Below, one piece after another: positions 34,838 through 45,676 of a stretch of DNA of 50,926 nt (position 1 is the first letter of the stretch; every line of letters starts with the position of its first letter). The translations under genes and the position numbers were made by a program. Source of the DNA: Nitrospirota bacterium (GTDB taxonomy: Bacteria; Nitrospirota; Thermodesulfovibrionia; UBA6902); contig JACRMS010000010.1 in the NCBI GenBank assembly GCA_016214845.1, forward strand, positions 1-50,926, read 5' to 3'. Below the pieces are notes generated by a model. That model was not told the origin of the DNA. It ran no database searches and saw nothing but the letters and a program-made list of their open reading frames with translations.

Positions 34838-34937
34838 CCGGGCCTTCAGGTTATCCTGCGGCACACAGGATAACTGCTTACCGTTGCTTCCTTCCGGACC
34901 TGGCGGGATTCACAGCATACTGTTGCACAGGGCCCAA
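34838..34937 (-). ncRNA. ffs: Signal recognition particle RNA, small bacterial (4.5S) type
   Basis: The minus strand contains the universal SRP domain IV sequence GGTCCGGAAGGAAGCAACGG with the closing strands CCCGCCAGG and flanking helices, and GGGCC at the 5' end pairs with GGCCC at the 3' end. Length about 100 nt, without an Alu domain. It lies directly upstream of dnaX, the classic position. Confidence 0.93.
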
Positions 34938-34962
34938 AGACCCGACCCAAAAATAGCTCTCG

Positions 34963-35025
34963 GCGATCAGCCTTCAGCAATCAGCTAACAGACCATAGCT
35001 GAAAGCTGACGGCTGATCGCTGTTC
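34963..35025. repeat. Inverted repeat of the AGCTGATTGCTGA family
   Basis: GGCGATCAGCCTTCAGCAAT on the left and GCTGACGGCTGATCGCT on the right form a long imperfect stem between SRP RNA and tRNA-Ser. Confidence 0.65.
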
Positions 35026-35029
35026 TTTC

Positions 35030-35120
35030 TGGCGGAGAGGGAGGGAGTCGAACCCTCGAGACGGTATTAGCGTCTACACGATTTCCAGTCGTGCTCCTTC
35101 GGCCACTCGGACACCTCTCC
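35030..35120 (-). tRNA. tRNA-Ser (anticodon GGA)
   Basis: Class II tRNA with a long variable arm: acceptor GGAGAGG/CCTCTCC, anticodon loop CTGGAAA (GGA), T-arm GGTTCGACTCC, encoded GCCA end. It borders the mobile island, and 12 bases of it (35087-35098) recur beside the integrase gene. Confidence 0.97.
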
Positions 35121-35229
35121 AGAAGCTTAAAAAAGCTAAATTAATATTATATATCAAATAGTTGTGCACATGAGGCCAATTTGTCAAAATTGTACAGAAT
35201 CGCTCGAAATGCCTCTTTTTTGTCATCAA

Positions 35230-35283
35230 TTTGCAGTCAAAATGCATACACAGAGACCTGTTGACTGCAAAAGTCGTGCTCCT
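35230..35283. other. Candidate attachment site beside the integrase gene
   Basis: AGTCGTGCTCCT at 35272-35283 repeats the sequence of the tRNA-Ser anticodon region (35087-35098). Just before it stands an 11-bp perfect inverted repeat (TTTGCAGTCAA at 35230-35240, TTGACTGCAAA at 35261-35271), as recombinase sites often show. No matching right end was found. Confidence 0.4.
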
Positions 35284-36295
35284 AAAATTTAAGGGTATTG
35301 ATCGCATCGCGTAAATGTTCCGCTATCAGTTTCGTATATATCTCGGTTGTCTTTACAGTGGTGTGTCCAAGAACCTCAGACACTATTTTTAACGGCACCC
35401 CCTTCAGCAGCATAAACGTTGCCGAGGTATGCCTCATGTCGTGTAGTTTAACATTTTTCAGTCCTGCATTATCAGCATACTTTCTGAATTTCTTGGATAC
35501 TTCCTTGGGGTGATAGTAACAGGAAGGAAATACCGGACCTATATGCTTTTTCCGGTAGAAGAGCAGTTCCTTCAAGTTATCTGCAAGGGGAATAATCCTG
35601 GTCTTGGTTTTACTCTCCTTAATATGAACCATCCATATGTCGTTGTTTTCCTTGAAATCCTGCCACTGTAGTCTTGCGATCTCAGTCCTGCGTCCTGCGG
35701 TGTACAAATAGGTAAGGAGAAGCTCTCTATCTTCCTGTATGCTGATTGCAGACAGCAGCTTTTCGATCTCCTGCTTGTTGCAGGCCCTCGGAAGGCTGTC
35801 TTTGAGCTTGATTTGCTTTACATATTCCCATGGGGTCTTATCAATATACTCCCATTCAACTGCCTTTTTAAAAGCTGCCTTAAGGTGCCTTATAGCGATG
35901 TTGATGGTGGTGGGTTTCAGGGTATTTCCCCTGAGATGATTAATAAATTCCTCGCATTGTTTTCTGGTAATAGAATTGATCAGTGTAGCACCACCGAGGA
36001 AATCAGTCAATTTGTCAAAAGATTCTTTGTCTAACCTTGTAGTATTCGATGCCTTGTTTTCTTCTCTATGTGCTATATATTCTTTTGAGAAATCAGCAAC
36101 AGAGCTATATGATTTTCGCTCCAACTGGATCAGTCTGCCGAGCAGAGCCTCTTTCTCTATCTGTTTAAGGAGCCTTTGGGCAAGAAGCTTGTCTTTTGTT
36201 TTCAGGCTCTTTGCTTGTCCTCGCCTGATTTCTACATAGTAGGTTCCATTTTTTCTTTTGAAAAGTCTCATGACAGGAAATTTTATTATATTCAT
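35282..36295 (-). CDS. int: Tyrosine recombinase (phage-type integrase)
   Basis: A 337-residue integrase. N-terminal DNA-binding segment (MRLFKRKNGTYYVEIRRGQ), core-binding SAM-like domain, and catalytic domain with arginine in YTAGRRTEIARLQW, HDMRHTSATF (HxxR) and LGHTTVKTTEIYTKL with the nucleophile tyrosine. It lies next to tRNA-Ser, pointing toward it, and its ATG overlaps the stop of the excisionase-like gene. Confidence 0.95.
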   Translation of the reverse strand: MNIIKFPVMRLFKRKNGTYYVEIRRGQAKSLKTKDKLLAQRLLKQIEKEALLGRLIQLERKSYSSVADFSKEYIAHREENKASNTTRLDKESFDKLTDFLGGATLINSITRKQCEEFINHLRGNTLKPTTINIAIRHLKAAFKKAVEWEYIDKTPWEYVKQIKLKDSLPRACNKQEIEKLLSAISIQEDRELLLTYLYTAGRRTEIARLQWQDFKENNDIWMVHIKESKTKTRIIPLADNLKELLFYRKKHIGPVFPSCYYHPKEVSKKFRKYADNAGLKNVKLHDMRHTSATFMLLKGVPLKIVSEVLGHTTVKTTEIYTKLIAEHLRDAINTLKF

Positions 36296-36861: not shown

Positions 36862-39129
36862 TCAAACATCATACTCAGTTAATAACCCGGCAAGGATTTC
36901 ATCGACAACGTCACTTATCGGTTTCTTCCATTGGAGGTAAGGATTGTCCGATAATTTTTTCTTTACGGTTGCTTTTAATTCCTCAAGTCTGAGTTTTTCT
37001 TTAAACTTTGGGAATATCTGTTTCAGAATTTCCTCTGTGCGTTCTTCAATCTTTGCCTCCCTGATAAGTTTGTCTCTGACCTTATCCTTTATCTTCTGTT
37101 CACCTTTGCTTTCAAACTCATTGGACAAGATATGATCTGGTGGAATAAGCTTGCCGTTTGCATAATCCTCCATCTTTTTATCCAGCCACTTAATAAAGGT
37201 AGGGGTATCCATTGCGTTTAACTCAATCCGGTTGGATTTGTACCATTTCTGCCATCGAACGGATACATAATCCGCACAGTTCTTTGGCTGCTTTTTCTTT
37301 AGCGTTTCAACCTGAAGTCCCATGTCAAGACCTTCTTCTGCTTCTAATCCCAAATTTACAACTCTGACTTTTCGTTGGGGCCTTATCCTTGTTGCTTCAA
37401 CAAGGGATTGATAAATGAGCGTTCCGTCAATATCCGCATCATGGATACAGAAAAAAAGAAGCTCTTCATCACTCTCCCCGATCAAATCCAATACATCTCT
37501 CGCAGCTCCGGTTGAGTAGCCTTTACTTGTCAGTAAAGCGCAATCATGCTTTTCAGGCCATTTTGCGCTCTTTAATATTTCAATAAAACCTTCCTTTTCA
37601 CAGTAAATGATTTTGTTAAAGGTCCATTCAGGCGTTTTATAGTTTTCGACACTTAAGGTGCCCAGCGTGATGGTTTCCTTAAGATGCGGATGATACAGAA
37701 CACCCCGGTCGTCTCTGTAAATATTCCGTAACTCAGAACCTTTCTCAGCCTCATGCCCGGTTATTATTTTTATGAAGTTTTTATACGTCAGATCTTTCCC
37801 CAATTCTCTGTTTACTATTGCTCTGGCAACGTAATAAATCTGCCTTTGAGAATATCTGTAGAGATAGTTATCGCTCGATTTAATCATTGCAACATCGAGA
37901 TTATCCAGCACTACTTGTTTTTGAGATATTTTCTTTTGCTTGGGGTTGCTTTGCTTGGACTTTGATTTTTTTATAGCGGCTGTAATTGCTGCTCCGATCT
38001 TATCGTTCAGAGCGGAAAAGTCCGGCGCCTTACTGTCAGAAGTGATAGGCATATAGGGGGTTATTACATTTACCAATATCTCTTTTGGTGTTTTTACATT
38101 TGCCCTGCAGTCAATCCCGCAGCCAAACAGCCAAACATCCTGAGGATACACATGAGTGTTGACATTCCCGGTTACAGGAGTCCTGTTCACACAAAAGGTT
38201 GAACGAAACTTATCAGAGTTTTTTACCCATACCTCAAGAACATAAGGCACGATAGGCTGTGACATTTGCTCCTCTAATCTTATTTCAAAGTTGCCGTGAG
38301 TTTTATGATAAACATCAAAGCCTTCGATATCGCCGACAAGCCCTAATCTCTCGGTACTAACCGGCTTTGCCAGCTTTCTCATCCTGAGCTGCAATCTCTC
38401 GATATCCACTCTGTTTAACTTTTTGACTTTCTTTACGTTGAATTCTTCAGCAATCTTCCATTTGATATCCCCTGAGAGGGAATCAAACTCTTCAACGAAT
38501 CTTGCAACCGTCAAGTCATCAGGAGACGACTTGACCAGTTCGTAGAAAAAGTCGAAATCATACCAATGAGGGGAAGTCTTGCCTTTATATCTATTGCCTC
38601 TGTTTAATTGAATCGCTTTATTGCTCCATTCAAAGACGTTGTTCAGATTAAAATTCGGAAGTGTCACTTCAATCCGGGTTCCGGTTTTATTATAATTTCC
38701 GGTCTGCCTGTAAAGGGTTTCACCGGCATCAAACTGCGGGAATAATTGAAGGCATCTTCCTCTCGTCATGACTTTTAAAGTGCCTTCGCTTACCAACACT
38801 GAAGCTGCTATTACTCTTGATCCATTGCCGACCGCGCCCCGTGTCGGCATCCTGTAATATTTTGTTGACCGTAATGGCCGATTGATTGAAAAGAGACTTG
38901 CTATTTCTTCATCAGTTCCGGAAATCCCTTTGCCGTAATCCTCAACAAAGAATCCATTCCCTTCCAATAAGCCGGTCTCGCAGTGTGAACTTGCATCTAA
39001 TGCGTTGTCTGTCAGTTCTTTTGCGACTAACTTCGGTAATAGGTGGATATCAACCCCTATAACCTGCTTCAATCCTTGTAACGTTCTGAAAAGGGTCCAA
39101 TGTTCTCTTTCATGAAAACTTGGGGCCAT
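36862..39129 (-). CDS. Single-chain type IIB topoisomerase, topoisomerase VIII-like
   Basis: 755 residues fusing B and A parts. GHKL ATPase: N-box LVAKELTDNALDAS (E38, N42, D45), EDYGKGI (63-69), GAVGNGSR (98-105) and GTRIEVTLP (150). The A part has a winged helix with RQIYY (429-433; catalytic tyrosine candidate Y432/Y433) and GVLYHPH, and a TOPRIM domain with E511 in YCEKEG and D564, D566 in HDADIDG, plus SKGYSTGAARD. Fused A-B chains of this kind, topoisomerase VIII, are known from free or integrated plasmids, which fits this island. It should cleave duplex DNA with ATP and may serve element replication; activity is unproven. Confidence 0.82.
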   Translation of the reverse strand: MAPSFHEREHWTLFRTLQGLKQVIGVDIHLLPKLVAKELTDNALDASSHCETGLLEGNGFFVEDYGKGISGTDEEIASLFSINRPLRSTKYYRMPTRGAVGNGSRVIAASVLVSEGTLKVMTRGRCLQLFPQFDAGETLYRQTGNYNKTGTRIEVTLPNFNLNNVFEWSNKAIQLNRGNRYKGKTSPHWYDFDFFYELVKSSPDDLTVARFVEEFDSLSGDIKWKIAEEFNVKKVKKLNRVDIERLQLRMRKLAKPVSTERLGLVGDIEGFDVYHKTHGNFEIRLEEQMSQPIVPYVLEVWVKNSDKFRSTFCVNRTPVTGNVNTHVYPQDVWLFGCGIDCRANVKTPKEILVNVITPYMPITSDSKAPDFSALNDKIGAAITAAIKKSKSKQSNPKQKKISQKQVVLDNLDVAMIKSSDNYLYRYSQRQIYYVARAIVNRELGKDLTYKNFIKIITGHEAEKGSELRNIYRDDRGVLYHPHLKETITLGTLSVENYKTPEWTFNKIIYCEKEGFIEILKSAKWPEKHDCALLTSKGYSTGAARDVLDLIGESDEELLFFCIHDADIDGTLIYQSLVEATRIRPQRKVRVVNLGLEAEEGLDMGLQVETLKKKQPKNCADYVSVRWQKWYKSNRIELNAMDTPTFIKWLDKKMEDYANGKLIPPDHILSNEFESKGEQKIKDKVRDKLIREAKIEERTEEILKQIFPKFKEKLRLEELKATVKKKLSDNPYLQWKKPISDVVDEILAGLLTEYDV

Positions 39130-39541: not shown

Positions 39542-39678
39542 GACCTCCTGTCTATTTACTGCTGTATTACTTTCAGATGGTTCCGAATGAGATACCATGT
39601 GGTTTCCGATCCTGCAGAAAATGCTTAATCAAACGTCTTCGGTTACCGGCTGGTACTTAAACGGTTGCAATCCAAATA

Positions 39679-39712
39679 AAAAAGCCCAGAGGTAAAACTA
39701 TGCCTCCGGGCT
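39679..39712 (-). terminator. Intrinsic terminator overlapping the end of the 214-residue ORF
   Basis: On the minus strand AGCCCGGAGG and CCTCTGGGCT pair, followed by TTTTTTATT. The TAG stop of the gene (39700-39698) falls within the loop, so the stem's first half is also coding. Confidence 0.8.
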
Positions 39713-40342
39713 AATCCAAACTTTATATATCTTCCTGCGGGTATTTAGACGCAGGTCGGCCTTTATTAAAGCAACCTGATGTTTGCGGGCCTGTTTTGCT
39801 GTCCACAAGGCAAGTCGCTTTTTTTGTTCTACAATACCGCTGAAAGCTGGTATGCCGTTGATCAAATTAAAAGTCTTGATAATGTCCCACCTGTTTTTTG
39901 TTTTCACAACATCTGCCATTACTGCCTTAAAGCCTGCATAAGTCTCTTTCGTAAAACGAACAGAGCAGACTTCGTTATTGACGTATATGACGAGCGAAAT
40001 ATTATCGCTCACCTTTACCGTCATTGGCTTCTCGCAAACATCCGAAAACCTGTCATCATACAGCACATGATCCGTAGAGCCATGCGTATGCATGATGATA
40101 GCAGTAGATTCATATCTCAGATAGAAGAAATTTGCGACGCGTTTTTCTTTCAGCCTGCACCGCTGGAACTTGGACTTTTCCGTCTCGTATTTCCTGATCA
40201 GCTTCCGGTCAATTCCCAGCCATTTGTCGCGCTTCCTTTCGGGCAGATCTGTAACGTGATAGAACAGGTACCCTCGTCCGATCAAGTACACTATCTCCTG
40301 AATGAATCCCTGCCAGCTCCCTGTTAGATAGTTATAAGCCAT
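39698..40342 (-). CDS. Hypothetical protein of the mobile island
   Basis: A 214-residue basic protein starting MAYNYLTGSWQGFIQEIVYL; GGGAGG eight bases upstream decides the start. No family is recognised. It is rich in Lys, Arg and Tyr, without signal or membrane segments, with alternating strands and helices (HVTDLPERKRDKWLGID; ANFFYLRYESTAIIMHTHG). Placed beside the RHH-like and topoisomerase genes, it may be a replication or transfer function of the element, but nothing in the sequence proves this. Confidence 0.6.
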   Translation of the reverse strand: MAYNYLTGSWQGFIQEIVYLIGRGYLFYHVTDLPERKRDKWLGIDRKLIRKYETEKSKFQRCRLKEKRVANFFYLRYESTAIIMHTHGSTDHVLYDDRFSDVCEKPMTVKVSDNISLVIYVNNEVCSVRFTKETYAGFKAVMADVVKTKNRWDIIKTFNLINGIPAFSGIVEQKKRLALWTAKQARKHQVALIKADLRLNTRRKIYKVWISPEA

Positions 40343-40440
40343 AAAATTACCTCCCGGTTTTTTATTAAGCTCGGCCTCCCGGCCAGCAGCTTTCCTAATT
40401 GATATCACTTAAATAGCAGCATCAATAAGTAAAGCCACTC

Positions 40441-41168
40441 CCAAAAAGGTTCAGCAAGGTGTAGTCTTTTACGCGCCGTATTAAACGGGATGTCATTCCC
40501 GTCCGGCATCGGGTCACCACTGCCTTGCAGTGACCCTCAACGCTATTCAACTACGCTCCTGATCCTCGCACGATTTCTCGCCGTTCGGACCGTGCCGCCT
40601 TAGATAATTGTGTTAAGGAAATGGTCAGGTCGCTCACTTCGACGGTTGTGTGCATATGCACGACCCCGAATATGGAAGCAGGTCCTTACTCGCTCCAGAG
40701 GAGTTTTCGGATACCCGTCGAAGATCAAAGCAGTTCGGCCTCGCCTCTCCATTTCCTTTTACCCGGTCGCATCCTCCTGAAACGGATAGGATGCTTTCCC
40801 GCCAGGCATCATTGGCGGACTTTAAGGGTTCAGCTATACACCAACCGGAATTACTTCCAGTCAGTTCCCCCTCCGGGTCAGGTGTTACGTCATTACTGAC
40901 GTCCCACTGGATGGATTTTCACCACTTCACAATTACCGTACCTTTCCCCTGAATGGCCGGGGAAAGATGATGTCGGCGTCGCCCATACTCAGCAAGGCAG
41001 TGGGTAGAAGACATCTTACAGCCAGCCCCCGTTACCACCGGACAAGCACGTCTCCATGCATCCGGCGATGCCTTATGTATCTGCATCACATGTGACTGTG
41101 TGAGTAGCTATACATAACCCTTCTCCTCTGCTGAATATTCAAAGTGAAGAGCCGCTGAACTTTCTTGG
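40441..41168 (-). ncRNA. Large structured RNA: candidate circularly permuted group II intron
   Basis: A 728-nt segment without convincing ORFs. Its ends (41168-41154 and 40455-40441) can pair over 15 positions with one mismatch and one G-U. Reading the minus strand, a hairpin (TTATGTAT/ATACATAA) is followed by a domain V (41068-41035) and then some 570 nt of hairpin-rich sequence with CTTTCCCC/GGGGAAAG, ACGTCA/TGACGT, CCGCCA/TGGCGG, GCATCCT/AGGATGC and GGGTCA/TGACCC stems, and a GGCGAGGCCGAACTG word recalling domain I. Domain V before domain I, with the closing stem in the place of domain IV, is the order of circularly permuted group II introns. Splice sites were not assigned; a repeat-bounded intron fragment is the alternative. 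Confidence 0.6.
41035..41068 (-). ncRNA. Group II intron domain V hairpin
   Basis: Exactly 34 nt: a 9-bp lower helix starting TCGCCGGAT with CGC at positions 2-4 (the triad, CGC being the form of class C introns), the G3-U32 wobble, a 2-nt bulge (TT) at 24-25, a 5-bp upper helix and a GAGA (GNRA) tetraloop at 15-18. This is the full architecture of catalytic domain V. Confidence 0.82.
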
Positions 41169-41597
41169 AAAAAAACTATCCTTTTGGATTTGATGTGGGA
41201 ATGAAACAAAAGAAAATACTCGCTTTTGAAATCCTTTAATTTTCAATCGGTTTTCCCCTGCGCAACTTCCATATAGAATATGGGCGTATAGCAGAGCAAA
41301 AAAAATAATCAGGGTGCAAAACCCGTCTTGGAATCCGCTTCACCAGCGGAGATAAGGTAAGTGCCGGATGTCCCGCGCGTAACCCAGCAATTAGAAGTTC
41401 GACTATCGGGGTTGTCTACTCGAAGTTAATAGTTGTCTGTATATTACCTTTTGATTGTCTGAATATGGTTCTGAATTCATAATTCACCAGTGCTGTTATC
41501 TTTACCAGCATCATTTAGCTGCCCATGTTACGGGTAAGAGCATGTCTTTTTTCCCCATTTTGTGGCCATACAATAAATCCGACTGTTCGAAAGACAT

Positions 41598-41644: not shown

Positions 41645-42667
41645 ATGAAAGAAGAAACATCGCTTTCCGATTCTGTGAAACTGATCTTGGGCTGCTATAT
41701 TTACCCATACCGCGACATTTACGAGTTTCAAAACGCACTTGATATCGTTGCGGAACTTATAAAGCTGCTTGAGAAATACGGGGATTGCCCTTCTGTTGTG
41801 GCTACAGGGAGCGGTCCTGAGGCGGATACTTCACCAGCGGTAAAAGACAGACTTGCTGGCGTCACCCTCAGGGAGCATTCCTATGGAGTGACATTGAATA
41901 TGGTCAAGGCCCTTAAGAAGAGTATTACGGACTATGAAATGCACATGCCGAAGGCGGTAATCACCGGCCTCGCTCATGACATAGGAAAGATTCCCCATTT
42001 AATCTCGAATTCAGCCGGTGAGGTGTATGAACATCAGATAATTAGCGCCCGGTGGCTTGAGGGAATGTTTTATGGGAAAAATCAAACCCTCGCAAGCCAA
42101 GTGATAAACGCAGTAGGGAACCATCACATATGCCTGAGGAATGATTTGGCCTGCATGTTGAAAAAAGCTGATCAGGAAGCACGGCAATCAGAACTTGTGA
42201 GATTCTCACGGAATCCCAGGATAGCGTCCCTGGATACATGGTTTAGCATAGAGGATTTTTACTGGAGGATAAGGCCATATATCAATTTTCCAAAGTCAAA
42301 CTGGCAGGCATTTACATTCAGGGACCTTGTCTACTGCAAACCACAATTGATTTATGAAACAGCAAAGGCCCTCTGCGAAGAGGCAAATATTATTGACCCG
42401 CTATTTCGGAGCAAGTTGTCATATGATAGAGCGTTGCACGGGATTATTAGTTTCCTCAGGAATTATGATTTTATTCCCGATCTGTTCGAAAAAGGGAAAC
42501 CCCGGAGACTTTATGCAATCAAAACCGAATTGGGCTCAACTCACAAAACATATTTGATCCCTCTCAAACCAGTCGGCTTTTATCGATGGAATGAAATTGA
42601 AAGGAAAAAGACAGAGTTCTTTTTAAGAGATGTTAAATCTGTGTATCCGACCGGGAAAGGCGATTGA
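41645..42667 (+). CDS. HD-domain protein (possible MobH/TraI_2-like)
   Basis: A 340-residue metal-dependent HD-fold protein: H in LREHSYGVTLNM, the HD pair in VITGLAHDIGKIPH, H in VYEHQIISARWL, NHH in VINAVGNHHICLR, and D in KKADQEAR. This is a complete HD phosphohydrolase core, with a C-terminal half of unknown type. MobH relaxases of integrative elements also carry HD-type motifs, so a transfer function is conceivable; a nucleotide phosphohydrolase is equally possible. It is transcribed toward the 43-bp repeat array. Confidence 0.65.
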   Translation: MKEETSLSDSVKLILGCYIYPYRDIYEFQNALDIVAELIKLLEKYGDCPSVVATGSGPEADTSPAVKDRLAGVTLREHSYGVTLNMVKALKKSITDYEMHMPKAVITGLAHDIGKIPHLISNSAGEVYEHQIISARWLEGMFYGKNQTLASQVINAVGNHHICLRNDLACMLKKADQEARQSELVRFSRNPRIASLDTWFSIEDFYWRIRPYINFPKSNWQAFTFRDLVYCKPQLIYETAKALCEEANIIDPLFRSKLSYDRALHGIISFLRNYDFIPDLFEKGKPRRLYAIKTELGSTHKTYLIPLKPVGFYRWNEIERKKTEFFLRDVKSVYPTGKGD

Positions 42668-42683
42668 AGTAATTCGCTTATTT

Positions 42684-42917
42684 TCCAAAAAAGTTAAGGT
42701 TCCCGATTTGGTCGCAGGCTGTCACAAAAGCAGGAACCCCTGGTTCCTAATCTTGTTGCACGATGTTACAAAAGCAGGAACCTTGGTTCCATTTATTGTT
42801 TCACGTGTCACAAAATATAGAACCTGTGTTCCATTTATCGTTGCATATATTGCAAAACATGGAACTTGACTTCCCGCTTTTGTCGCATGTGCTAAAAAAG
42901 CGGGAAGTTAGATGAGG
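42684..42917 (+). repeat. Array of about five degenerate 43-bp tandem repeats (iteron-like)
   Basis: Units start near 42708, 42753, 42796, 42838 and 42880, with a partial unit before. Each has a GTTGCA...TGTTACAAAA dyad and a GGAACC-n-GGTTCC dyad followed by ATTTA. In the fourth unit TTGCATATATTGCAA is a perfect palindrome. Head-to-tail dyads at this period in a plasmid-like element suggest iterons of a replication origin or a binding array. The surrounding gap 42668-42982 holds nothing else. Confidence 0.75.
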
Positions 42918-43737: not shown

Positions 43738-44583
43738 TTATATCGATATCCCCAACTTACTGAGTAACGCATTCACCCGCTCGTAAGCATCTCTCTGTAT
43801 GCGCTCCTGTTCATCGGGCCCGACTACTTCTTCAAAGTCTGCAACTGACTTCGGGCCGAAGGCTTTCTCTGAAGAGAACTTCCCAGCGATCTTCTGCAAG
43901 CCTTCCATAACGAGTCCATGATTCAGGTGTGGTTTAAATTCATCTACCAGCGCATCTATCCCGCCCGGATAATTCAGCAGGCAATAGTAAATGTCCCAGG
44001 CATCCTTTTCTTTCATGCGGGTTTCCATGGCCATCCCCTTCATCACAAAGAATGGCACAATAGAAGCAACGCGAACAGTAACTGAATCATGTGCTCCATT
44101 AGGAAGCGTCCCTTCGATCCTGATCTCTTTTGACATCTCAAAGGCGAGATCGCATCCTCTTACTTTACGAGCCTGTACTCCCTGTATTTTCTGGTGACGA
44201 TGACCTTTTGAAGTCCCCTCATATTCACCAGCCAAGAGGTCGATTTGTACCTTGACCTGCTGGTCTCCCACTTTCACATCTCTAAAAAAGATAAATGGCT
44301 GCTCTCCCTGCTGATATCCTCTACTCATAAGAAGATCCTGAATTTTCTTGTATCCGGCTTCCTGAATCTTCTGATGGTTTAGGGCGATGTCTACATCCAT
44401 GCTGCCAACATGTGGGCCGCTGAAATGGGGTAACAATACTTCAGGAATCCAGCCGCCGATGAGGACGATATCATCTTTATATTCACCCAGTAGATGAACC
44501 AGCTCTATGAGCACAGAGCGTGCAGCCTCTACCCCTTCGGCCGTATAATCTCTTCGAGTTACCATATTTAATTCTAATGTCAA
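43738..44583 (-). CDS. Nucleotidyltransferase-fold toxin, AbiEii-like
   Basis: A 281-residue nucleotidyltransferase: VLIGGWIPEVLL followed by GSMDVDIAL gives the GG...DxD metal-binding signature, with a further acidic residue in VQIDLLAGEY. It lies 31 bases after an AbiEi-like gene, the order of type IV toxin-antitoxin (AbiE) systems, in which the transferase blocks growth by nucleotide addition to RNA. Likely translated from the same message as its antitoxin. Confidence 0.78.
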   Translation of the reverse strand: MTLELNMVTRRDYTAEGVEAARSVLIELVHLLGEYKDDIVLIGGWIPEVLLPHFSGPHVGSMDVDIALNHQKIQEAGYKKIQDLLMSRGYQQGEQPFIFFRDVKVGDQQVKVQIDLLAGEYEGTSKGHRHQKIQGVQARKVRGCDLAFEMSKEIRIEGTLPNGAHDSVTVRVASIVPFFVMKGMAMETRMKEKDAWDIYYCLLNYPGGIDALVDEFKPHLNHGLVMEGLQKIAGKFSSEKAFGPKSVADFEEVVGPDEQERIQRDAYERVNALLSKLGISI

Positions 44584-44614
44584 CTAACGTTCATACATTG
44601 AACACAACTTACGA

Positions 44615-45676
44615 TCATTTGTTCATAGCTGTCCATTTTGTTTTTATTACATCTCTCAGCAAGACTTCCGCAGCTTCCTCGCCTCTGCCTTTATACCCTT
44701 TCAGGTCAAGATATGTCTGCAAAGGCGACACGATCCTGATATCTTCAATTATCTGATTCCCGTAAAAAACCCCTTCGTCATAAGGACCGAGGATAGTTAT
44801 ATTAGCCCCGCTCTCTACCTTTTTCAAATTCAGTAATGATGCCACATCCTCTCTGTCATTGTATACGTAAGCCATTGCACGTGAGTAGCGCACCGCAGGG
44901 GCATAGCGTGCTGCGCCGGAGAAACCTGTCAGCGCATACGCAACACCTTTCTCCTGGCAGATCTTTGAAATATCGGATTCTATTTCAGGAATGCTTTTCA
45001 GTGAATAATAATTGCACACTTCATTCTTCCGGTATGTATATACATTCGCCCATTCTTCAAGTAGCTTCCACGGGGCAGTCAGTGAGAATCCATCCTGCTT
45101 CGTGATCCACTCACGATCAAGAAGGAGTTTCTTCACGTTAGCGACCTGTCCTAAACTAACCATTGCTTCATCGGCGAGGTCCTGCGTCTTCCATACCCTT
45201 CCGGGATTGTTTAATAAGACCCGCAGCACGCGGGAAGACTTTGGAGAAAAGAGTGATACGAGGTCTCTTTTCGTCCGGAAGGGATTCGTCTTTCCTGTCT
45301 GCTCAATGTATACCTGTCCGAACGACATGAAACAGTTGCCGGCAAAGTCCAGATAACCAACACCATCTTTCATGCAGATCTCAGCTGACTGTGGAGATAT
45401 GAAGGGAGCCATGAAAATAAAGTACGCATCCGGGAAGGTATCACGGTAGCGAATTAACTGATTGACTGCATTGCGAGCCATGCGCGGTTGTCCGTTACTC
45501 TTCACTTCAATGATGAGCACCTGCTTCTTGTCATCAAGAGTTAGAGTAACCAGAAGGTCCACGCCGTCTTTCTCGCGCTCAATAGATTCAATCTTCAAAA
45601 AAGGTATCCTATCAAGGATACTTTTTATGGTATCTTGTGCTTTAATTTCTATGTCCGGCAGTTCTGTTTTCATCAT
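44615..45676 (-). CDS. AbiEi-like antitoxin / regulator with N-terminal nuclease-like fold
   Basis: A 353-residue protein. Residues about 30-130 have a PD-(D/E)xK-like pattern (GVDLLVTLTLDDKKQVLIIEVKSNGQ), then a winged helix (SSRVLRVLLNNPGRVWKTQDLADEAMVSLGQVANVKKLL) and an AbiEi C-terminal region (YALTGFSGAARYAPAVRY; VSPLQTYLDLKGYKGRGEEAAEVLL). Antitoxins of this type repress their own operon; two matching palindromes flank the promoter. Whether the nuclease-like part still cuts is unknown. Confidence 0.75.
   Translation of the reverse strand: MMKTELPDIEIKAQDTIKSILDRIPFLKIESIEREKDGVDLLVTLTLDDKKQVLIIEVKSNGQPRMARNAVNQLIRYRDTFPDAYFIFMAPFISPQSAEICMKDGVGYLDFAGNCFMSFGQVYIEQTGKTNPFRTKRDLVSLFSPKSSRVLRVLLNNPGRVWKTQDLADEAMVSLGQVANVKKLLLDREWITKQDGFSLTAPWKLLEEWANVYTYRKNEVCNYYSLKSIPEIESDISKICQEKGVAYALTGFSGAARYAPAVRYSRAMAYVYNDREDVASLLNLKKVESGANITILGPYDEGVFYGNQIIEDIRIVSPLQTYLDLKGYKGRGEEAAEVLLRDVIKTKWTAMNK

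Follow-up and report, generated by a model that had tools for sequence, protein, structure and literature searches.

Circularly permuted (CP) group II ribozymes were described in 2021 by Roth et al. (PMC8637638) as RNAs in which domains V and VI (D5-D6) come first, followed by a short linker bounded by the 3′ splice-site motif NU and the 5′ splice-site motif GGGCG, and then by domains I to IV (D1-D4). In vitro, five representatives yielded circles and branched RNA (PMC8637638). The same paper associates the class with a protein, AcpG, which it reports as having no homology to anything known, and it stresses that intron-encoded proteins are never found near CP ribozymes. A proposal made there is that the branched RNA acts in trans on targets that resemble intron-binding site 1 (IBS1). 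Here we report a member of this class on the minus strand (41168-40441) of contig JACRMS010000010.1 from a Nitrospirota bacterium, of which a stretch of 50,926 nucleotides was analysed (the window), together with the acpG gene behind it. We think it very probable that this RNA is a CP group II ribozyme and that the gene behind it encodes a descendant of a group II intron maturase, itself dead as a reverse transcriptase (RT).

The permuted RNA

The window RNA is a new member of the published class (PMC8637638). D5-D6 comes first, the reversed splice sites lie inside the RNA, and D1-D2-D3 follows (Table 1); this order is kept, and covaries, in homologues from several phyla. Directly after D5-D6 the sequence reads ..CUACCCACU / GCCUUGCUGAGUAU / GGGCGAC.., where the slashes mark a 3′ site (CACU/) and, 14 nt further on, a 5′ site (/GGGCG). 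It is the GGGCGAC directly after D6 and the downstream D1 that place the RNA in the CP class, not a covariance score; the canonical arrangement, in which D1 to D6 follow one another between terminal splice sites, is not found. The likeness to the published RNAs, known as 'T-large' RNAs, is extensive (PMC8637638). It takes in the order D5-D6-D1-D2-D3-D4, the reversed internal NU and GGGCG, the short linker, the branch A of D6, pairing of exon-binding site 1 (EBS1) with IBS1, 5′ stem-loops with probable loop-loop pairing, a nearby AcpG and a plasmid or mobile context. The window differs in its Nitrospirota host, where the main text of that paper names Deinococcus-Thermus, Firmicutes and Proteobacteria, in a D5 base of CGC rather than AGC, and in a linker that falls 1 nt short of the published 15-86 nt. 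Furthermore, acpG follows the RNA immediately and in the same orientation; in pTT8 and the other published-type loci examined it is divergent and upstream.

Domain V sits exactly where an earlier note on this DNA had put it, as a 34-nt hairpin on the minus strand. It reads UCGCCGGAU GCAUG GAGA CGUGC UU GUCCGGUGG, with an NGC triad, five pairs, a 2-nt bulge and a GNRA-type loop; the triad is CGC in the window and AGC in the published consensus, and the otherwise alignable relatives have one or the other. In D6 the candidate branch-point A41005 sits in CUACCC and is invariant in nine sequences. The Rfam model Intron_gpII (D5-D6) matches 41070-40999 with 36.1 bits (E 6.4e-5), which a default scan misses because the curated cut-off is 40. 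We encountered no CP group II family in Rfam, and the pTT8 RNA has no match there as Intron_gpII.

Comparative tests support the structure from end to end. The 728-nt segment folds far better than its shuffles (z = -7.3, reached by none of 20). Its closing stem has 14 pairs and one A.C mismatch over 15 positions, as the earlier note had described, in the place of domain IV. In a homologue that is 92% identical the mismatch becomes a pair and another pair changes from A-U to C-G. Across 12 homologues the arms prefer their own partners to swapped ones, with none of 20,000 permutations as good; this helix was scored by a simple helix score, as RNAduplex on the long arms was too greedy, though the native arms still beat swapped ones there. 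For D5 and D6, all 185 cells of nine sequences are paired, and ten pairs show two-sided changes, eight of them in D5. Covariation is 0.577, where shuffles give 0.192 and slid controls no more than 0.085, and 34 cells are changed on both sides (11 in shuffles). When 11 sequences are compared along the full RNA, compensation is seen at least once in 98 of 136 consensus pairs, among them pairs of the D1 base helix and arms. EBS1 and IBS1 pair at 4 to 6 of 6 positions in relatives, and native combinations do better than swapped ones (p = 0.003, with loops chosen by hand). The loop of the P2-like hairpin is likewise complementary to that of a 3′ hairpin in 12 homologues (permutation p = 0.001), again with hand-picked loops, and this 3′ hairpin may be the counterpart of the published D2.

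Most of the earlier note thus stands. The order it had proposed, domains V-VI first and I-III after, agrees with the conserved, covarying D1-D3 downstream, the reversed NU and GGGCG, and acpG as the next gene. It had called for a group II covariance search, which gives the sub-threshold match at D5-D6, for domain VI and IBS/EBS pairs, which were located (6 of 6 pairs), and for covariation in the 15-bp stem and the domain I helices, which is present in both. The outcomes it had named as fatal, i.e. no domain I-III match downstream, a domain I upstream of 41168, or no covariation in homologues, did not occur. It erred in expecting a GUGYG-type 5′ splice site, for GGGCG is found instead, and while its extent of 40441-41168 is right for the RNA, the module does not end there but reaches about 39674, so as to include acpG.

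Table 1. Features of the RNA-acpG module, in window coordinates
Feature	Position	Strand	Basis
Whole module: upstream region, CP group II RNA, acpG, terminator-like hairpin	39674..41523	-	Sole long stretch of the window in common with the G026 contig (88% identity)
Closing stem, 5′ arm	41154..41168	-	14/15 pairs with 40441-40455
Closing stem, 3′ arm, in place of domain IV	40441..40455	-	Native-versus-swapped test
P1-like hairpin upstream of D5	41117..41147	-	Consensus helix with compensatory changes
P2-like hairpin, CACA-CAGUCACA-UGUG; loop GUCA (41096-41093) can pair with UGAC 40495-40492	41087..41102	-	Loop-loop complementarity
Domain V, 34 nt, CGC triad, 2-nt bulge, GAGA loop	41035..41068	-	Rfam match, covariation
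Domain VI; candidate branch-point A at 41005	41001..41030	-	Rfam match, covariation
Predicted circularised linker, 14 nt, GCCUUGCUGAGUAU	40985..40998	-	Published motifs NU/GGGCG; conserved in alignment A2
IBS1	40990-40985	-	Inside linker
5′ splice site motif GGGCG, D1 start	40980..40984	-	Alignment; hand-chosen loop tests
Domain I; base helix 40978-40975 / 40599-40596	40596..40978	-	Consensus structure of 11 homologues
EBS1 (AUAUUC)	40668..40673	-	6/6 pairs with IBS1, one G-U
Domain II hairpin	40561..40591	-	Consensus structure
Domain III region, loop hairpin and purine-rich strand	40465..40536	-	Position in the RNA; naming as D2 or D3 tentative
acpG, 214 aa; ribosome-binding site GGGAGG at 40355-40350	39698..40342	-	AcpG family by iterated profile; AlphaFold model pLDDT 83.9
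acpG segment ANFFYLRYESTAIIM, aligned to RT motif 5 (..YVRYADDFVI..) without catalytic Asp pair	40091..40135	-	Profile comparison
acpG C-terminal three helices, aligned to RT thumb / maturase domain X	39782..39949	-	AlphaFold model, profile
Terminator-like hairpin AGCCCGGAGGC..CCUCUGGGCUUUUUU, overlaps acpG end; base-changed counterpart in DeMMO3	39677..39712	-	Direct reading

AcpG and the intron maturases

Inside the RNA the only reading frames are unlikely antisense ones, and acpG begins 99 nt past the closing stem. In 16 CP loci the RNA is followed, on its own strand, by an open reading frame (ORF) of the same family. Related ORFs are upstream and divergent in pTT8, pPNAP05, Acinetobacter, Comamonas and Abyssibacter, and upstream on the same strand in a Thermotogota contig. 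A profile of the window type finds, with hmmsearch, TTHC007 of pTT8 (3.4e-5) and the Polaromonas (1e-7) and Acinetobacter (4e-7) proteins, and hhalign aligns window-type with published-type AcpGs at E 2.7e-14 (probability 98%). As the profiles join both types, the gene behind the window RNA is AcpG, the published CP-associated protein. For a 236-aa reading BLASTP gives no match to TTHC007, which had pointed to a new protein family until these iterated profiles overturned the idea; hhalign of the first seven-sequence profile with TTHC007 alone was suggestive only. An independent test came from AcpG relatives on a Leptolyngbya plasmid (pLBX, L254, Cyanobacteriota) and a planctomycete plasmid (pK2D_1, L255, Planctomycetota), which were found before their RNAs: a gene-free gap lies upstream of each, and both gaps hold a CP-type D5-D6. 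The planctomycete copy has AGCCAAC in place of the usual GGGCGAC. Pfam, NCBIfam, PADLOC and PDB sequence searches give no function for AcpG, and PDB sequence matches to gp41 were taken as chance helix matches. A sigma-70 scan shows no promoter above chance, and a simple terminator scan does not flag the hairpin at the end of the gene.

The profiles and predicted structures suggest that AcpG is probably the maturase that belonged to the intron itself, worn down much as MatK or Prp8 are and dead as an RT. The AlphaFold model of the window protein (mean predicted local distance difference test, pLDDT, 83.9; predicted template modelling score, pTM, 0.78) has group II intron proteins as its first three PDB matches in Foldseek (E 0.016-0.18). 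Upon realignment, RTs of group II or group II-like kind fill the first eleven places (best Z 10.0 over 180 residues at 3.4 Å), and Prp8, DRT9 and retron RTs come next. For the Acinetobacter protein, whose identity to the window-type rows in our protein alignment (A5) is about 20% or lower, the model (pLDDT 79.8) realigns with group II proteins as its first four matches (Z 9.1-8.3). Both models are predicted to have the RT palm and the thumb, or domain X, and share this palm-thumb fold with the group II RT-maturases (PDB 6me0, 8t2r, 8t2s, 8fli, 6ar1) and Prp8 that are their best matches, but AcpG is without the fingers, the catalytic YADD and the D/En domains.

Profile comparison points the same way. 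In hhalign, 17 AcpGs align with 24 RTs at E 2.8e-4 over 149 columns, and RT-maturases rank first over 79 non-RT decoy families, the best of which reach 0.097 against AcpG and 0.0066 (25 columns) against the RT profile. ANFFYLRYESTAIIMHT of AcpG is aligned to RT motif 5 (YVRYADDFVIL), EKPMTVKVSDNIS to motif 6, and KETYAGFKAVMADVV..LINGIPAFSG to the RT thumb. Where RTs have "YVRYADDFVI" AcpG has "FYLRYESTAII", so that the catalytic aspartates are gone; the Asp pair is absent in all AcpG members seen, with YESTA and other non-DD residues at motif 5. RT motifs 0-4 are not found, and the fingers region is absent too. Without YADD and fingers, AcpG is not filed as an RT.

Degenerate maturases are known from plants. 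In MatK only motifs 5-7 can be aligned with RTs, while domain X is retained (reviewed in PMC4424553), and AcpG retains much the same region, and has lost the YADD, like MatK and other degenerate plant organellar maturases. In contrast to these, AcpG is bacterial, smaller (about 210-290 aa) and a putative maturase, and its gene accompanies a permuted ribozyme instead of sitting within domain IV of an intron. In searched literature AcpG in the CP-associated sense occurs only in Roth et al., and the maturase reading is new to that extent.

Several results weigh against the combined reading of ribozyme and maturase. Foldseek's E for group II proteins is weak with the first model (0.016), and in its own order for the Acinetobacter model group II proteins do not come first. 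The published-type AcpGs alone have no match to RT profiles (E 0.36 and 0.48), and adding them to the window type lowers the RT signal to 1.7e-3. Neither Pfam (RVT_1, GIIM) nor PDB sequence searches identify AcpG as an RT, CP RNAs lacking acpG are on record (PMC8637638), and the window linker, at 14 nt, falls just below the published range. One could hold that the RNA is a CP ribozyme and AcpG an unrelated protein, e.g. a plasmid or partition factor, whose maturase likeness is a chance fold match. In favour of this, no sequence family recognises AcpG, the hhalign probability is only about 40%, and AlphaFold saw group II RTs in training. We nevertheless regard it as unlikely: two models of such low mutual identity converge on group II RTs and Prp8, the profile match is the best against the decoys in both directions and keeps RT4, RT5 and thumb in one register, and a maturase would be expected beside a group II ribozyme.

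In the window genome, which is 96% complete, there is no RVT_1 match at E 0.01 and no GIIM match at E 1e-8, and the scanned island proteins include no RT match, so there is no canonical maturase for the CP RNA to borrow. The earlier note's remark that no reverse transcriptase is present thus extends to RVT_1 in the whole genome, but it passed over an RT-dead relative of the intron protein that is probably encoded directly downstream.

Homologues, mobility and surroundings

Genomes of GTDB were scanned with a pattern of the D5-D6 and splice-site arrangement, which gives many chance matches, and these were filtered by a foldable D5. The CP loci left include Steroidobacteraceae, a deltaproteobacterium, Bacillus, Salirhabdus, Sporomusa and others, while a Planococcus plasmid locus was reached via a neighbouring protein. 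A covariance model (R1) was built from the first 101 positions of nine sequences, none of them a published example. It scores the close group at 92-105 bits and finds RNAs unseen in training: Polaromonas pPNAP05 (49.7 bits, E 9e-11), Comamonas (3e-9) and Acinetobacter (5e-13), and the Thermus pTT8 RNA weakly (E 0.047) but at the right place. The pPNAP05 ribozyme is active in experiment (PMC8637638). A canonical intron on a viral contig (L020) scores 48.9 bits, so the R1 score cannot separate the CP from the canonical class; canonical bacterial introns such as this one have a very similar D5-D6 sequence and differ in domain order and splice-site position. Matches on viral contigs were otherwise mostly chance pattern matches, with one true CP locus (L225). 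CP RNAs with AcpG were found in addition in Methyloprofundus, Abyssibacter, a Thermotogota metagenome-assembled genome (MAG) and this viral contig (L047, L090, L095, L225). Among phage records no AcpG relatives were found.

Of 396 Nitrospirota genomes, only the window genome and a Thermodesulfovibrionia MAG from DeMMO3 (G026) have strong R1 matches. The two share the RNA, acpG and the terminator-like hairpin, and their flanking DNA is unrelated, which suggests that the RNA and acpG move together. Both copies have integrase genes close by, and the RNA-acpG block is most likely carried by integrative elements and plasmids rather than by retrotransposition of its own. As no uninterrupted flank was found among 37 family genomes searched for an empty site with joined flanks, the module boundaries rest on the comparison of occupied sites only.

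These comparisons also bear on whether the window RNA is a scrambled, decaying and inactive remnant of an ordinary group II intron. Such a copy does exist in another of these Nitrospirota genomes, G006 (G006:C55, L003 / L258), with most of D1 and most of acpG deleted. The window copy, on the other hand, still has D5 and D6, its two splice sites, EBS1 and an acpG with an open frame, compensatory changes keep the pairs across phyla, and the genome has no RVT_1 or GIIM match that could be a source, all of which makes decay very improbable. An ordinary or split (trans-splicing) intron with its domain I upstream of 41168 or elsewhere in the genome can be dismissed almost outright, however close its D5-D6 is to canonical introns, given the matching D1-D3 downstream in all full-length homologues, the single R1 match in the whole genome, the end of the DNA in common with G026 at about 41523 upstream, and the GGGCGAC directly after D6 in relatives.

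The island around the module appears to sit between dnaX and the signal recognition particle (SRP) RNA gene on one side and typA/bipA on the other. Its tyrosine integrase gene (34841-36295) is about 340 bp from the SRP RNA gene, which suggests integration near ffs; no convincing att repeats were found around the island. A protein of 755 aa is encoded in the island at 36862-39129. It ends in a TOP6A/Spo11 Toprim domain, its N-terminal part matches the MutL type (GHKL) weakly, and it looks like a fused Topo VI-type enzyme, such as the Topo VIII of mobile elements. A gene for a 340-aa HD-domain protein (41645-42667) with weak Cas3-HD-type matches runs divergently from the CP RNA. Between it and the next gene lie imperfect direct repeats of 42-44 bp in at least four units (42698-42889), to which an 80-bp stretch of G026 is similar. 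At 43738-45676 an AbiEi-type regulator adjoins a 281-aa protein without a Pfam match, likely a type IV toxin-antitoxin-like pair.

Proposed mechanism and significance

The chemistry reported in vitro for relatives suggests how the window copy may work. The closing stem would hold the RNA ends together where domain IV would be. The branch A of D6, A41005, would attack the downstream 5′ splice site, before G40984 (/GGGCG), and the freed 3′ end of the linker would attack the upstream 3′ splice site (..CACU/), after U40999. This would release the 14-nt linker as a circle and leave D5-D6 joined to D1-D3 by a 2′-5′ branch. In ordinary introns the thumb and DNA-binding domain of the maturase contact the D6 branch helix, and the maturase switches the reaction to branching (PMC10733145). 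On the model of such maturases and of MatK in chloroplasts, AcpG may bind the RNA with the thumb-like (domain X) helices and what is left of the palm, and promote folding and branching. A possible gain for the element or its host is that the branched RNA acts in trans on targets like IBS1, along the lines proposed in PMC8637638.

Should AcpG be a degenerate maturase, as is probable, CP group II elements would be circular permutations of whole introns. An intron of the form D1-D2-D3-(ORF)-D5-D6, cut between the ORF and D5, would give D5-D6-D1-D2-D3-ORF, the arrangement seen in the window and 15 other loci. The route may have been, for example, a tandem duplication of the whole intron followed by loss of the outer parts.

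The CP class gains a Nitrospirota member and cases on cyanobacterial and planctomycete plasmids. To our knowledge no bacterial counterpart of MatK was known before, and AcpG would be the first, if it is a degenerate maturase. In that case the 2021 statements on the lack of homology and of intron-encoded proteins nearby would both change. AcpG's likely job would be to help D6 and D1 dock for branching, and the protein partner, this job and the origin of the permutation would all be directly testable. Bacteria would then hold a pair, a ribozyme with its RT-dead maturase, by which small RNA circles are made; with just two components, it would be a simple parallel to the spliceosome's core of Prp8 plus RNA.
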